A DNA stretch of 64,000 bases. Source: Haloferax litoreum (lineage in GTDB: Archaea; Halobacteriota; Halobacteria; Halobacteriales; Haloferacaceae). Each line of letters begins with the position of its first letter. The first letter of the stretch is position 1. Positions 56,268 to 62,683 of this stretch are shown piece after piece. The translations under genes were made by a program, and so were the position numbers. Where the stretch lies: NCBI RefSeq assembly GCF_009674605.1, contig NZ_WKJO01000001.1, positions 2,418,001 to 2,482,000 on the forward strand, read 5' to 3'. The notes beneath the pieces are model-generated. The model had not been told where the DNA came from. It saw nothing but the letters and a program-made list of their open reading frames with translations, and did not search any database.

Positions 56268-57236
56268 TCAGGGCTCGATAACCATCGTGTAGCGGTCGAC
56301 CAGAAGAACGAGTATCGCACCGCCGAGCGCTGCGAGCGCGAAGATGCCGAACAGTTCGACAGACCACGTCTGGCCCAACTCCGCGAGTTTCTCACTCGTC
56401 TTGACGACGGGTGCGCGGAGTGCACCGGCGATGAGACTCACGAGAAACGCGAGCGTCTCACGGCGATAGTGTTCGAGCGCCCACCGGACGATATGGGCGA
56501 TGGTGAATAGTCCGACGAGTGCACCGGCGATGAAGGCGACGACGATGGTTCCGGGTTCGACGAGCGCCGACACTGGACCACCTCTCGCCACGTCGATGAG
56601 CGTGTCGACGAATTGGCTGAGAGCCGTGGTCATGTACTCGTACTGGCCGAGAAGCAACAAGAGGAGCGACCCCGAGATGCCGGGGAGAATCATCGCACTC
56701 ACCGCGATTGCCCCTGTGACGACGGTCACCGGGAGTGAGTTCCCGAGTGCACTCCCGACGGTTCCCGACGCGACGAACGCGACGGTGAATCCCGCGGCTG
56801 CTGCGACGAGTTGTCGAGGCGAGTCGAGTGAGACCTGCGCGTACAAGACGACGGCGGACGCGGCGATGAGACCGAAGAAGAATCCGAACGTCGGCACTGG
56901 TTGTTGGTCGATTGCGACGGTGAGGACGCGGGTGACGGTGATGATGGCGGTGGCGATTCCCGCTCCGAGGACGATGAGGAACCCCACGTCGATTTCGCGT
57001 AAGGCCGTTACCGCGTCGTTCCGGTGCTTCGGCGAGATTCCGGTCAGTACCCGACGAATTCGCTCGGGTGTGATGGCAGTCACCGCACTGATGAGTCGTT
57101 CGTAGATGCCTGTGACGAGAGCGATGGTCCCACCGGATACCCCGGGGACCGCGTCTGCTGCACCCATGCAGACACCCTTCAGGTAGAGGACGAGCCACGA
57201 GAGGAGGGCCGGACGCTCGTCTGTGTGCGTCGACAT
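56268..57236 (-). CDS. DUF368 membrane protein, candidate polyprenyl-phosphate transporter
   Basis: A 322-residue integral membrane protein with about eight helices. The N-terminal signature KGVCMGAADAVPGVSGGTIALVTGIY and the internal copy-like MILPGISGSLLLLLLGQYEY are the duplicated DUF368 motifs (PG.SGG and PG.SGS). Bacterial DUF368 proteins have been shown to be undecaprenyl-phosphate translocases. Here the gene is 112 bases from aglM at the edge of the N-glycosylation genes, so recycling of dolichyl phosphate across the membrane is a reasonable inference. The start ATG 57236 fits a TATA element at 57263-57270. Confidence 0.85.
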   Translation of the reverse strand: MSTHTDERPALLSWLVLYLKGVCMGAADAVPGVSGGTIALVTGIYERLISAVTAITPERIRRVLTGISPKHRNDAVTALREIDVGFLIVLGAGIATAIITVTRVLTVAIDQQPVPTFGFFFGLIAASAVVLYAQVSLDSPRQLVAAAAGFTVAFVASGTVGSALGNSLPVTVVTGAIAVSAMILPGISGSLLLLLLGQYEYMTTALSQFVDTLIDVARGGPVSALVEPGTIVVAFIAGALVGLFTIAHIVRWALEHYRRETLAFLVSLIAGALRAPVVKTSEKLAELGQTWSVELFGIFALAALGGAILVLLVDRYTMVIEP

Positions 57237-57262
57237 TTGGTTGTGCGATTCTTCTTTGGGAC

Positions 57263-57270
57263 CCATATCA
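57263..57270 (-). promoter_or_regulatory. TATA-like element of the DUF368 gene
   Basis: TGATATGG on the minus strand, about 30 bases before ATG 57236. It supports that start over ATG 57266. Confidence 0.45.
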
Positions 57271-57348
57271 GTCCACCGTTCGACTTCGTGTGTCTTCGAA
57301 GGCGCGACGCGGAAAGAATCAAACCGTCGGGCGAAGACGTGTTGGATA

Positions 57349-58641
57349 ATGGAACTCAGCATCATCGGCAGTGGGTACGTCGGCACGACGATTGCCGCGT
57401 GTTTCGCTGACCTCGGCCACGACGTGGTCAACGTCGATATCGACGACGCCATCGTCGACTCGCTGAACGCCGGCCAGGCCCCGATTCACGAACCCGGCCT
57501 CGACGAACTCGTCGAGACACACGCCGGCGACCGACTCAGGGCGACGACAGACTACGACGCGGTTCTCGACACGGACGCGACGTTCCTCGCCCTCCCGACT
57601 CCCTCGAACGACGACGGAAGTATCGACCTAAGCGCGATGAAAGCGGCGGCGTCGTCGCTCGGTGAGACACTCGCGCAGAAAGACGACGCACACCTCGTCG
57701 TCACCAAGAGTACGGTCGTTCCGACGACGACGGTGGAAGTCATCGGACCACGAATCGAGGAGGCATCGGGGAAGACTGTCGGCGAGGAGTTCGATATCGC
57801 GATGAACCCCGAATTCCTCCGCGAAGGGACCGCTGTCGAGGACTTCCTCTCCCCCGACAAAATCGTCCTCGGTGCACAGAGCGAACGCGCGTACGAGCAG
57901 TTAGACGAGATATTCGCCTCGCTTGTCGAACGCGCGGGCGACCCGCCGGTCGTCAAGACCGGAATCAGCGAAGCAGAGATGATAAAGTACGCGAACAACG
58001 CCTTCCTCGCGTCGAAGATTAGCCTCGCGAACGACCTCGCGAACATCTGCAAAGAGTTCGGTGTCGACTCCGAGGAGGTTCTCGATGCAATCGGTCTCGA
58101 CGCTCGCATCGGGTCGGCGTTCCTCGGTGCAGGTCTCGGATGGGGTGGGTCGTGCTTCCCAAAAGACACGGCCGCGATTATCGCCGCCGCTCGTGCACGG
58201 GGCTACGAACCACGCCTTCTGCAAGCCGCCGTCGACGTCAACGACGAGCAACCGAAGCGGATGCTCGAACTCCTCGAAGACCGATTCGACCCGGAGGGAA
58301 AGCGTGTCGCCGTCCTCGGCCTCTCGTTCAAGCCCGGCACCGACGACGTTCGAAATTCACGTGCGATTCTCCTCATCGACCACCTCCTCGACGCGGGTGC
58401 CGACGTCGTCGGCTACGACCCCGTCGCGACCGAGAATATGCGTGCGCACTTCCCGAATATCGACTACGCCACGTCTGCCGCAGACGCACTCGTCGATGCC
58501 GATGCCGCACTCGTCGCGACCGACTGGGACGAGTTCGCCGCACTCGACGCACAGTTCGACGAGATGCGCGAGCGAGTCGTCATCGACGGTCGCCGTATCG
58601 TGACCCGGCGTGACGGACTCGACTACGAATCGCTCGTCTGA
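57349..58641 (+). CDS. aglM: UDP-glucose 6-dehydrogenase AglM
   Basis: A 430-residue enzyme that oxidises UDP-glucose twice to UDP-glucuronic acid with NAD. The NAD motif is IIGSGYVGTTIA (5-16), the catalytic cysteine is Cys269 in GWGGSCFPKD, and the NPEFLREG and SFKPGTDDVR blocks are typical. Length and position match Haloferax AglM, which provides glucuronic acid for the N-linked pentasaccharide of the S-layer. Start ATG 57349 gives MELSIIGSGY; the upstream extension to 57223 overlaps DUF368. It is divergent from DUF368 and convergent with aglF. Confidence 0.95.
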   Translation: MELSIIGSGYVGTTIAACFADLGHDVVNVDIDDAIVDSLNAGQAPIHEPGLDELVETHAGDRLRATTDYDAVLDTDATFLALPTPSNDDGSIDLSAMKAAASSLGETLAQKDDAHLVVTKSTVVPTTTVEVIGPRIEEASGKTVGEEFDIAMNPEFLREGTAVEDFLSPDKIVLGAQSERAYEQLDEIFASLVERAGDPPVVKTGISEAEMIKYANNAFLASKISLANDLANICKEFGVDSEEVLDAIGLDARIGSAFLGAGLGWGGSCFPKDTAAIIAAARARGYEPRLLQAAVDVNDEQPKRMLELLEDRFDPEGKRVAVLGLSFKPGTDDVRNSRAILLIDHLLDAGADVVGYDPVATENMRAHFPNIDYATSAADALVDADAALVATDWDEFAALDAQFDEMRERVVIDGRRIVTRRDGLDYESLV

Positions 58642-58686: not shown

Positions 58687-59427
58687 TCAGTCAGAGACTG
58701 CTTCCGTCGACTGGATTTCTTTTTGGAGTCTTCGTTCTGCTTCGTCGCGGTCTTCTGGATAGCCAATATCCAGTCGCCACCCGTCGAGACGAATTGCATC
58801 GATTGTTCTGCCAGACCTGATGAGGAGGTCGATTGCTTCACTAATCTCGTACTCGCCCCGATTAGACGGTTGGACGAGGTGGCAGGCATGGAATATCGAG
58901 GGTGTGAACGTGTAGAATCCAGTCATCACGAGATTCGACGGTGGGTCCTCGGGTTTCTCGATGACTTCGATAATCTCTCCGTAATCGTTCGTAACGCACA
59001 CACCGTAGCGCGAAGCTTCGTCCCACTCTACTTCCTCGATCAGGAAAGCTGCATCTGCTCGCTCTTCGCGTTGTCGTCGCACCACATCGTCGAGATTCGC
59101 TTGAAAGATGTTGTCTCCTAACATCAACATAAAATCGTCGTCGATGTGTTCTTCGACGGTTAAGAGCGCGTGCGCAAGCCCTTTCTGTTCCCGTTGGTGG
59201 GAGTACGTAATCGGGATACCGCGGTATTCGTCGCCGTAGTGGCTGATAATCACTTCTTTTTTGTAGCCGACGACGACCACGATTTTGTCGGCACCGAGTT
59301 CGACTAGCTGGTCGAAGCAGTGCGTTAGAATTGGCTTCCCGTCGACCTCGACCATTCCTTTGGGCTTCTCTTTCGTGAGTGGGCGGAGACGAGTCCCCCT
59401 CCCTGCGGCCAAGACGACTGCTTGCAT
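58687..59427 (-). CDS. aglF: Glucose-1-phosphate uridylyl/thymidylyltransferase-like AglF
   Basis: A 246-residue nucleotidyltransferase. The N-terminal signature is AAGRGTRLRPLTKEKPK, the substrate region has LGDNIF and YGVCVTNDYGEI, and the C-terminal WRLDIGYPEDRDEA closes the fold. AglF of Haloferax is reported to be a glucose-1-phosphate uridylyltransferase that works ahead of AglM. Here it is between aglM and aglB and points away from aglM. A TATA element (GATATAC, 59451-59457) 27 bases upstream shows its own promoter. A dTDP-glucose pyrophosphorylase is a possible alternative activity. Confidence 0.85.
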   Translation of the reverse strand: MQAVVLAAGRGTRLRPLTKEKPKGMVEVDGKPILTHCFDQLVELGADKIVVVVGYKKEVIISHYGDEYRGIPITYSHQREQKGLAHALLTVEEHIDDDFMLMLGDNIFQANLDDVVRRQREERADAAFLIEEVEWDEASRYGVCVTNDYGEIIEVIEKPEDPPSNLVMTGFYTFTPSIFHACHLVQPSNRGEYEISEAIDLLIRSGRTIDAIRLDGWRLDIGYPEDRDEAERRLQKEIQSTEAVSD

Positions 59428-59560: not shown

Positions 59561-62500
59561 TTACGCGACCACGGTGGTCCGAACTGCGCTGGCGTCGATG
59601 GAGGCTGACTCGTTCGATGTCGATTCGTTACCAGACTGTTCGGTAAACGTCAGTTCCTGTTCATTGCGTTCGAGGGTAACCTCGATGGTACCGTCTTCAG
59701 CACCGTTGACGAGGCCTTCGTCGACGCTGACATTCTGTGCCTGATAGGCGACGATGGTGTTGTTCCCTTCGAACGACGTTGGGCCAGTGAACGTGTAGTC
59801 GCCCGTCGCACGGACGCTCACGTTGGTGTACCCGTTCTCGGGACCGTAGTCGTCGTAGCCAGTCGTCGAGTACGGGAGCGTCATGGTGAACTCGCCGTTC
59901 CCGTCGGTCTGGACCTGCTGCGTGTAGGTGAACGTCGTGTTGGTCGTGAGGTCACGCATCTCGACCTGTGCGGTCACCGTCGAGTCGGCCGGGGCACCGG
60001 ACCCTTCGACTGTCGCGCCGGGGACGCGTTCGAACGTCTTGACCCACGCCGGGTTGTTGTCGAGGAGGACCTGCGGTTGGATGCCAAGAGTGTTCCCTGC
60101 GCGAATGAGGGAGTTCTGGTAGGAACCGGACCGAAGTGACGAACTGTTCGACGACTTCACGAGGCGGTAGTGTTCCAGGGCAGGGACACGCTCTTCAGGG
60201 AACGCGGCGATGCCGCCAATCTGCGAGGTTGGGTCGCTCTCGACGTACGCCTCGGCGGCGCTCATGTTCTCGAACGTCTTGATCGCCTGCCCGTCGGACG
60301 GCGTCACGCGAATGGTCTGCGTGTCGGAGACCGGACGCTCGTCCCAGTCGACGACGACGGGTGATGGGTCACGGGCACTGCCGTGGTACTTGTAGAGGCG
60401 AATCATCATGCTCTCGTAGTACCGCTGGTCGTGGACTTTGGTCTGGGAGAACCCAGTTACCTGCCCGTCCTGTTCTTGCAGGCGGTACACGGTGCTGTAG
60501 AAGTCCGACGTCGAGACATCTTCTTCGTCGTAGAAGACAGTCGGTGCACCGAACTTCGAGTCGGTCGAGGCCATCTGCCAGTCGACCATCACGTAGCGCG
60601 TCTGGTCGCCTTCCTCGCTCTGTCCGGTGAGGACGTCGTTGGCCTGTGCTTCGTTGGGTGCGAGAAGATAGTTCGCCGCAGAGGTTGCACCTTCCTGGAA
60701 CGGGTTCGCGTTCGGAATCCGTTCACCGAGGACGGTAATCCAGTGCCCGTAGTCCCACCAGGACATCACACCGTAGGTGCCGTCCGCGTATTCGTAATCG
60801 CTCGTGGCTTTGTACGTCCCGTAGTACTCCATCTCGTTGGATGCGCCACCGAGCGTTCCTTCTTCAGGAGTGTTGTTTTGCATCCATTCGAGTGATCCTT
60901 CCCACTCAGTAACCGTCCCCGGTCCAGTCTGTGACGCCTCAAGAGCGTTGTCGCTCGTGCCAGCGTTCCCAAGTTGAATCGGGACGAGGAGGACTGGAGT
61001 GAGGACCAGCAGGAGAGCGACTACAACGGCCGCGACTTGGCCGTAGGAGACATCCCCCACGCGCTTCACGTCCGCGAGTCCGATGAAACTGAGACCGAGA
61101 ACTTCGCGGAGGAGGTATGCGTTCATCACCGCGACGACGACTGCGAGGTAGTAATTGAAACGGACTTGGGTGAACGCCGCCGAGGTGATGATGGCTGCCC
61201 AGACGAGAACGAACAGGTGTTCGCTCTCGTAGTCAGCTTGCAACACTGCACCGACGACCAGTGCCGTGACGATTGCGAGGCTGACCAGCGACGAGTCGAT
61301 TCCGACGAGGCCACCGACCCCAGCTGGGACGGCCGGAATCAAGAAGATGAGCCCGATAACAGCGAGACTTCCAGCAACGTACCCGATTTTTCGAGAGTCT
61401 CCGTCGTTGACGAGCGGTTTCGCGACGAACCAGACCGTCGCGACGACACCGGTGAAGAATGTGAAGCCGTATTCTGACATGATCCGCTCGACTGCGGACA
61501 TGCCAGTCGCTTGGAGTGTGTTCGCAGCAAGGAACGGTTGTGCCTCACCGATAGTCCGCGTTGCTGCGCCGGCGCTAAAGCCGACGGTACGGAGGAAGTT
61601 GGTGCTAATTTGGTTGAAGACGTTGGGGAGAACGAATGCGGTAAAGAGGATTCCAACGACTCCGAGAACACCGACTGCCGCGGGGTATCCACGGTCGTCG
61701 ACGTCGTTTGCTTCCCACCAGCGGGCCATCGCTGCGAGGACGACTGCCCCGGCACCGATGCCGAACGAGAAGAGCGGCTGGAGGAGGCTGAACTGAGTCA
61801 CGCTGAACGACGTTTCAGCGAGGGGAACGAACATCAGCACTCCGGTGACGAACATCGACACAGCACCGACGAATGCGACGTGTTCGGGGGACCGGCCACG
61901 GACGTAGTCCGAGACCATCGTGAGGACCAAGAACAGGCCGAAGATACCTACGAGGAGAATACCTGGCGGCCACGACCACATGTAGACTGCCATCGCGACG
62001 CCAGCGAGGGCGGACCACGTGAGTGGCGTTCGAAGCGCGTCGAAGTCACGGGCGTCGACGAGTTCCCAGACCGGTTTTTCGCGGTCTGCGACGGCGAGTG
62101 CGACCATGACCGCGAGGACAGCGAAGCCCTGGAAGAACGGTTCGGCGATGTTGTGGTCGGCAAAGCCGACGAGGCCACGTCGGAGGAACGTCCCCGGGAG
62201 GAGCATCAAGATGAGTGCTCCGAAGAGACCACCGAGACGCCCACCGAGGCGTCGTCCGATCAGGAACGTTGGGATGACGACTAGTGCTCCGAAGACTGCG
62301 GGGGCAACGAGGAGCGTCTTCGCGACGAGGTCAGCCGATGGGCTACCGAGGCCGACGATGAGGGCGGCCGTCGCAACTATCTGGTCGTAAATCGTCCCGA
62401 ACTGACCGACACTCGTCCCGAATGGGAAGTAGGTCCACGGGTCGAACGGCATCGTGCTCGGCCAGTGACGGACTGTGTACGACACCTCTCGGAGGTGGTA

Positions 62501-62683
62501 CCAGGCGTCGTTTCCGGAGAACAAGACGCTCCCATCTGTGATGAAATTGCTGTACGACTTCAGACGAATAGCCAACATCGTGACTAGTACCACGAGGAGG
62601 ACGGGGACGTGGTACCAGTCTTTGAACAGTTCGAGGACCGACGAAGAGTCAGGGCCCTCTGTGTGTTCAGAGTCTGTACTCAT
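59561..62683 (-). CDS. aglB: Oligosaccharyltransferase AglB
   Basis: A 1040-residue STT3-family enzyme that transfers the lipid-linked glycan to Asn in N-x-S/T sequons outside the cell. The catalytic WWDYG motif is at residues 642-646. An early NDAWYHLREV follows the first helix, and about 13 membrane helices occupy the first 560 residues; the large extracytoplasmic C-terminal part ends in beta-rich domains. The start ATG 62683 has a TATA element (GCTTATAC) 28 bases upstream. It is the core of the N-glycosylation locus and is transcribed away from a sugar aminotransferase gene. Confidence 0.96.
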   Translation of the reverse strand: MSTDSEHTEGPDSSSVLELFKDWYHVPVLLVVLVTMLAIRLKSYSNFITDGSVLFSGNDAWYHLREVSYTVRHWPSTMPFDPWTYFPFGTSVGQFGTIYDQIVATAALIVGLGSPSADLVAKTLLVAPAVFGALVVIPTFLIGRRLGGRLGGLFGALILMLLPGTFLRRGLVGFADHNIAEPFFQGFAVLAVMVALAVADREKPVWELVDARDFDALRTPLTWSALAGVAMAVYMWSWPPGILLVGIFGLFLVLTMVSDYVRGRSPEHVAFVGAVSMFVTGVLMFVPLAETSFSVTQFSLLQPLFSFGIGAGAVVLAAMARWWEANDVDDRGYPAAVGVLGVVGILFTAFVLPNVFNQISTNFLRTVGFSAGAATRTIGEAQPFLAANTLQATGMSAVERIMSEYGFTFFTGVVATVWFVAKPLVNDGDSRKIGYVAGSLAVIGLIFLIPAVPAGVGGLVGIDSSLVSLAIVTALVVGAVLQADYESEHLFVLVWAAIITSAAFTQVRFNYYLAVVVAVMNAYLLREVLGLSFIGLADVKRVGDVSYGQVAAVVVALLLVLTPVLLVPIQLGNAGTSDNALEASQTGPGTVTEWEGSLEWMQNNTPEEGTLGGASNEMEYYGTYKATSDYEYADGTYGVMSWWDYGHWITVLGERIPNANPFQEGATSAANYLLAPNEAQANDVLTGQSEEGDQTRYVMVDWQMASTDSKFGAPTVFYDEEDVSTSDFYSTVYRLQEQDGQVTGFSQTKVHDQRYYESMMIRLYKYHGSARDPSPVVVDWDERPVSDTQTIRVTPSDGQAIKTFENMSAAEAYVESDPTSQIGGIAAFPEERVPALEHYRLVKSSNSSSLRSGSYQNSLIRAGNTLGIQPQVLLDNNPAWVKTFERVPGATVEGSGAPADSTVTAQVEMRDLTTNTTFTYTQQVQTDGNGEFTMTLPYSTTGYDDYGPENGYTNVSVRATGDYTFTGPTSFEGNNTIVAYQAQNVSVDEGLVNGAEDGTIEVTLERNEQELTFTEQSGNESTSNESASIDASAVRTTVVA

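Follow-up and report, generated by a model that had tools for sequence, protein, structure and literature searches.

The DUF368 gene and its neighbours

The window, a stretch of 64,000 nucleotides of the Haloferax litoreum genome, carries a DUF368 gene next to aglM, with aglF and aglB further along (Table 1). The open reading frame is real. The predicted protein matched the Pfam profile PF04018, described as 'VCA0040-like, undecaprenyl phosphate translocase-like', over residues 24 to 276, with 221.3 bits (E 1.9e-65) against a gathering cut-off of 26 bits. Its ATG, at 57236, matches the start found in close relatives, for instance H. profundi, whose DUF368 is the closest named one (94% identity), and H. 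marinum (87%); the interval in the table includes the stop codon. A genome-wide profile search returned a single PF04018 copy in this Haloferax genome. Scores with the NCBIfam PopT equivalog models NF052563 and NF052564 were 93 bits (PopT model) and 189 bits (VIBCH-type model), both far below the 400-bit cut-off, so that by the NCBI rule the protein is a relative and not an equivalog.

Table 1. Coordinates of the features discussed, as positions in the window
Feature	Position	Strand	Evidence
DUF368 (PF04018), 322 aa, resembling polyprenyl-phosphate transporters; candidate for dolichyl-phosphate transport	56268..57236	-	Pfam
Second PGxSG motif (PGISG), residues 185-189, second protein half	56670..56684	-	alignment, 86 sequences
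First PGxSG motif (PGVSG), residues 31-35	57132..57146	-	alignment, 86 sequences
Divergent region between DUF368 and aglM start codons, 112 bp	57237..57348		
aglM, UDP-glucose 6-dehydrogenase, N-glycosylation pathway	57349..58641	+	NF041297 equivalog, 747.9 bits, cut-off 670
aglF, UTP-glucose-1-phosphate uridylyltransferase	58687..59427	-	NF041313 equivalog, 444.2 bits, cut-off 400
aglB, oligosaccharyltransferase	59561..62683	-	TIGR04154 archaeal STT3 model, 974 bits, cut-off 450

The initial annotation had placed DUF368 beside aglM and near aglF and aglB, and NCBIfam models confirmed all three neighbours. Both aglM and aglF sit between DUF368 and aglB. As aglM lies there on the opposite strand, the DUF368 gene of the window is not simply bicistronic with aglB. 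The short gap that separates it from aglM may act as a shared divergent control region.

Linkage of DUF368 to aglB across haloarchaea

DUF368 was present in 192 of 194 haloarchaeal genomes and in 64 of 65 genera, usually as one copy. Neighbourhoods of 20 kb were compared at 128 loci, covering nearly all haloarchaeal genera and 27 named loci. At 94 of them aglB was present, invariably upstream and on the same strand, never opposite, and the gap between the two genes, using homology-based start positions, was -33 to +170 bp at 81 of the 128. An independent count was made from coordinates in the 151 haloarchaeal genomes for which the places of both genes were listed. In 105 of them aglB preceded DUF368 at close range and in the same orientation, at less than 3 kb in 97 and at 3 to 6 kb in 8, including this one; no other orientation was encountered within 10 kb in any of the 151. 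The two genes were unlinked in the other 46, either far apart (24 genomes) or on different contigs (22, of which at least one, G161, is probably interrupted by the end of a contig), and most of these 46 genomes have a separate DUF368 paralogue.

The junctions themselves are often tight. Stop and start codons overlapped as TAATG or TGATG in five checked junctions (L067, L069, L049, L102 and L159), and as ATGA in two others (L093 and L104), such overlaps being the usual signature of translational coupling. Long open frames were also checked for an AglB-DUF368 fusion, and none joins both.

Conservation of the other neighbours was examined at 35 diverse loci. These had been picked for being linked, and the presence of aglB at 35 of 35 is thus not itself evidence; what counts is the contrast with the far side of DUF368, where the gene content is reshuffled, the commonest family occurring at 5 of the 35 loci. 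In about 18 of them aglB and DUF368 form a stand-alone pair, both flanking genes pointing the other way. That the adjacency is an inherited gene order devoid of functional meaning is very improbable in our opinion: haloarchaea do descend from a common ancestor, and chance alone preserves some gene pairs, but here the other neighbours of DUF368 were reshuffled while aglB was kept in several families, with overlapping codons.

The conserved partner of DUF368 is aglB, not aglM. The link to agl loci, whose absence from other genomes would have told against the proposal of the initial annotation, was strongly conserved across haloarchaeal genomes as regards aglB, usually as a tight bicistron. Within Haloferax, aglB stands directly before DUF368 in H. 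mucosum, H. marisrubri, H. prahovense and H. gibbonsii, and aglM is placed between the two genes in H. marinum, H. larsenii, H. elongans, H. massiliensis, H. denitrificans and H. sulfurifontis. At two Halobellus loci aglM adjoins DUF368 and aglB is not within reach. Contact of DUF368 with aglM or aglF was confined to some Haloferax and close genera. These variants of order indicate that contact with aglM arose recently as a variant of the aglB-DUF368 pair, and that the aglM neighbourhood is derived and of local extent.

Across Haloferax species (the window and L135-L145), the presence of aglM and aglF in the interval separating aglB from DUF368 varies, the order of the latter two remaining constant, as if cassettes were being swapped.

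History of the linked and unlinked copies

A quick maximum-likelihood tree of DUF368 was built, from which the L073 and L054 rows were omitted (the L073 row was the neighbouring aglB frame). Linked copies were distributed over families f1, f2, f3, f4, f6, f7, f8, f9 and f10, that is, in every sampled family having DUF368. Unlinked copies fell mostly into one clade of 23, made of part of f3 and of the second copy in f4. Across the tree the linkage label switches about 8 times, versus 28.6 times for shuffled labels. Both types coexist in three genomes (G090, G142 and G180). When only the unlinked type is found, aglB is a single gene elsewhere, and at five loci (L167, L171, L173, L178 and L180) it has kept its place beside the orc/glp genes, as in the linked relatives, without DUF368. 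The simplest reading is that the linked copy was lost after the paralogue took over.

Distribution outside Halobacteria

In the whole phylum, DUF368 was found in 101 of 296 genomes and was missing from most of those outside Halobacteria. It is therefore not universal to archaeal N-glycosylation and, given this patchiness, other archaea must use another protein. Coordinates in the genomes of the phylum revealed no tight aglB-DUF368 linkage in methanogens, and a loose one, at 13-16 kb, in one family.

In that methanogen family (f28; G264, G272, G288, G371 and G423), an STT3-type oligosaccharyltransferase gene is on the same strand as DUF368, and the order of the two is reversed compared to haloarchaea. 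This spacing possibly reflects a wider glycosylation island.

The same counts bear on the idea that DUF368 is part of the archaeosortase (ArtA) system of the S-layer and not of N-glycosylation. The AglB of the window does fall in the 'archaeosortase A system-associated' subfamily, TIGR04154. However, nearly every genome of the phylum has ArtA (289 of 296), whose distribution does not track that of DUF368, so that we give almost no credit to this idea.

Protein motifs and predicted fold

Two PGxSG motifs, one per protein half, were common to the archaeal and bacterial DUF368 members compared. Aligning 86 sequences, drawn from haloarchaea, methanogens and only two bacteria, showed residues P31, G32, S34 and G35 and residues P185, G186, S188 and G189 to be invariant, D28 being kept in 85 sequences and R47 in 82. 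A confident AlphaFold2 model (pLDDT 92.2, pTM 0.86) has an all-helical, polytopic membrane fold, with helices stopping at 29 and 183, directly ahead of the PGxSG motifs, whose loops break the helices. The motifs may have a role in phosphate binding. Searches for a solved structural homologue returned nothing, whether by sequence or by fold (best fold match at E 0.17), which limits the fold comparison to the DUF368 family's own pattern.

The membrane domain belongs over its whole length to the same Pfam family as VCA0040 of Vibrio cholerae and SAOUHSC_00846/PopT of Staphylococcus aureus. The window copy differs from these two in being archaeal, in its presumed carrier, dolichyl phosphate (DolP), and in having kin linked to an oligosaccharyltransferase gene.

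A candidate for the return of dolichyl phosphate

According to Sit et al. (2022, PMC9876793), bacteria lacking DUF368 proteins build up surface C55-P, and the phenotype of such mutants depends on pH and, in V. cholerae, also on sodium; the evidence given for C55-P recycling is genetic, and the authors themselves note that transport as such is unproven. The same study reports that HVO_RS12060, a DUF368 protein of H. volcanii, hence of the same genus as the window, complements at least partly a V. cholerae DUF368 mutant, the test having been done only in this bacterial host. Dolichol-phosphate translocation is raised there as an implication, and the passages retrieved from it by term searches make no mention of aglB or N-glycosylation. 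Given the partial rescue, the chemistry is probably shared between bacteria and haloarchaea.

Haloarchaeal N-glycans use dolichol monophosphate as carrier, and AglB moves the glycan to protein (PMC4335974). It follows that the carrier left by AglB should be DolP on the outer face and, as it is already a monophosphate, the AglB product would be a direct substrate of DUF368, with no phosphatase step. By analogy, outer-face DolP should be the direct counterpart of surface C55-P. A protein of a recycler family encoded directly behind aglB in most haloarchaea is the best candidate for returning this carrier, and we propose that DUF368 is probably a polyprenyl-phosphate transporter that brings the DolP freed by AglB back to the cytoplasmic leaflet, both substrate and direction being presumed. 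In this scheme, AglB takes the glycan off dolichyl monophosphate at the outer face and attaches it to asparagine; the DolP that stays behind in the outer leaflet would be moved by the DUF368 protein to the cytoplasmic leaflet, where AglJ-type transferases would reload it. Glycosylation would then be expected to depend on the DUF368 gene. An ancestral, translationally coupled aglB-DUF368 bicistron would match the supply of the recycler to that of the oligosaccharyltransferase. In the Haloferax lineage of the window, aglM (together with aglF) now stands between the two genes.

Several observations speak against this proposal: the 46 genomes of 151 where the genes are unlinked, though most have the separate paralogue, the lack of DUF368 in most genomes of the phylum outside Halobacteria, the intervening aglM on the other strand in the window, and the presence of DedA proteins in all haloarchaea sampled (see below). 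The conserved aglB link and the published experiment with the H. volcanii homologue both favour the suggestion, already made in the initial annotation, of a candidate dolichyl-phosphate flippase. With DedA proteins co-occurring in the same genomes, DUF368 is a well-supported candidate and not an established assignment.

Vicinity to oligosaccharyltransferase genes would also suit a protein that carries glycan-loaded DolP, or a DolP-mannose precursor, outward, instead of the empty carrier inward. For Haloferax, the literature gives the outward step as proceeding by an unknown mechanism, with AglR apparently involved (PMC4335974). We find this reading improbable: relatives of DUF368 act on unloaded C55-P, whose surface level rises upon their loss (PMC9876793), and in Halobacterium salinarum Agl29 has been identified as the loaded-carrier flippase, or a contributor to this step (PMC11980604). 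The gene cluster described earlier in this species extends from VNG1048G to VNG1068G, the latter being aglB, at the cluster edge (PMC4335974, PMC11980604).

DedA/UptA (PF09335), a Pfam family different from DUF368, is the other family implicated in polyprenyl-phosphate recycling. It was present in 59 of 59 haloarchaea sampled, with 1 to 6 copies each, and in this Haloferax genome with 4 copies, 3 of them above cut-off. DUF368 could accordingly be a broad polyprenyl-phosphate or lipid scramblase for envelope homeostasis under high salt or alkaline conditions, having N-glycosylation as one client, DedA being then mainly responsible for recycling DolP. The conditional phenotypes of bacterial DUF368 mutants (pH, and sodium in V. 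cholerae; PMC9876793) and the persistence of DUF368 in genomes that lack the link to aglB would fit such a role. On the other hand, the linkage concerns aglB specifically, the two genes often forming a pair that stands alone, and a comparison by eye of the places listed for DedA found none within 3 kb of AglB, so that we regard a general scramblase as unlikely. Under the DolP-return reading, DedA may still provide a redundant route, DUF368 being redundant or conditional, and with DedA in all 59 genomes sampled a single deletion of DUF368 may show a conditional or mild phenotype.

It is conceivable, and we offer it tentatively, that AglB and DUF368 make up an obligate functional, perhaps even physical, pair, spent DolP being handed directly by the transferase to its own transporter. 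If so, the two would constitute a dedicated carrier-recycling module of haloarchaeal N-glycosylation. The class-wide operon with overlapping codons opens DolP return to testing in the genetic model Haloferax volcanii, for which S-layer glycan assays are established. DolP return by DUF368 would carry the recycling concept over from the wall polymers of bacteria to the glycosylation of proteins. Searches of the literature, not covering Roney and Rudner 2023 (Nature, PopT), found no biochemical or genetic test of DUF368 in an archaeon, no match for DUF368 together with N-glycosylation, and no protein assigned to the return of spent DolP to the cytoplasmic side in archaea; within that literature the class-wide aglB-DUF368 bicistron is new, the family itself being known.

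Exceptional genomes and additional copies

G186 has neither AglB nor DUF368, its assembly consisting of 180 contigs. The sole haloarchaeal genome with AglB but without a DUF368 match is G021 (family f5; L162), which encodes two DedA proteins. It could represent a natural redundancy test, unless the draft assembly misses the DUF368 gene.

At six unlinked f4 loci (L118, L127, L128, L130, L132 and L133), DUF368 adjoins and faces a family-2 glycosyltransferase-like gene, and in several of these a thermosome-like subunit is encoded nearby. The unlinked f4 copy may serve another glycan. Finally, a partial second DUF368, corresponding to the C-terminal half, was detected about 1 kb past the full gene in two genomes (G074:C1:2722822-2722971 and G089:C25:154401-154529); these fragments may be remnants of a tandem duplication.
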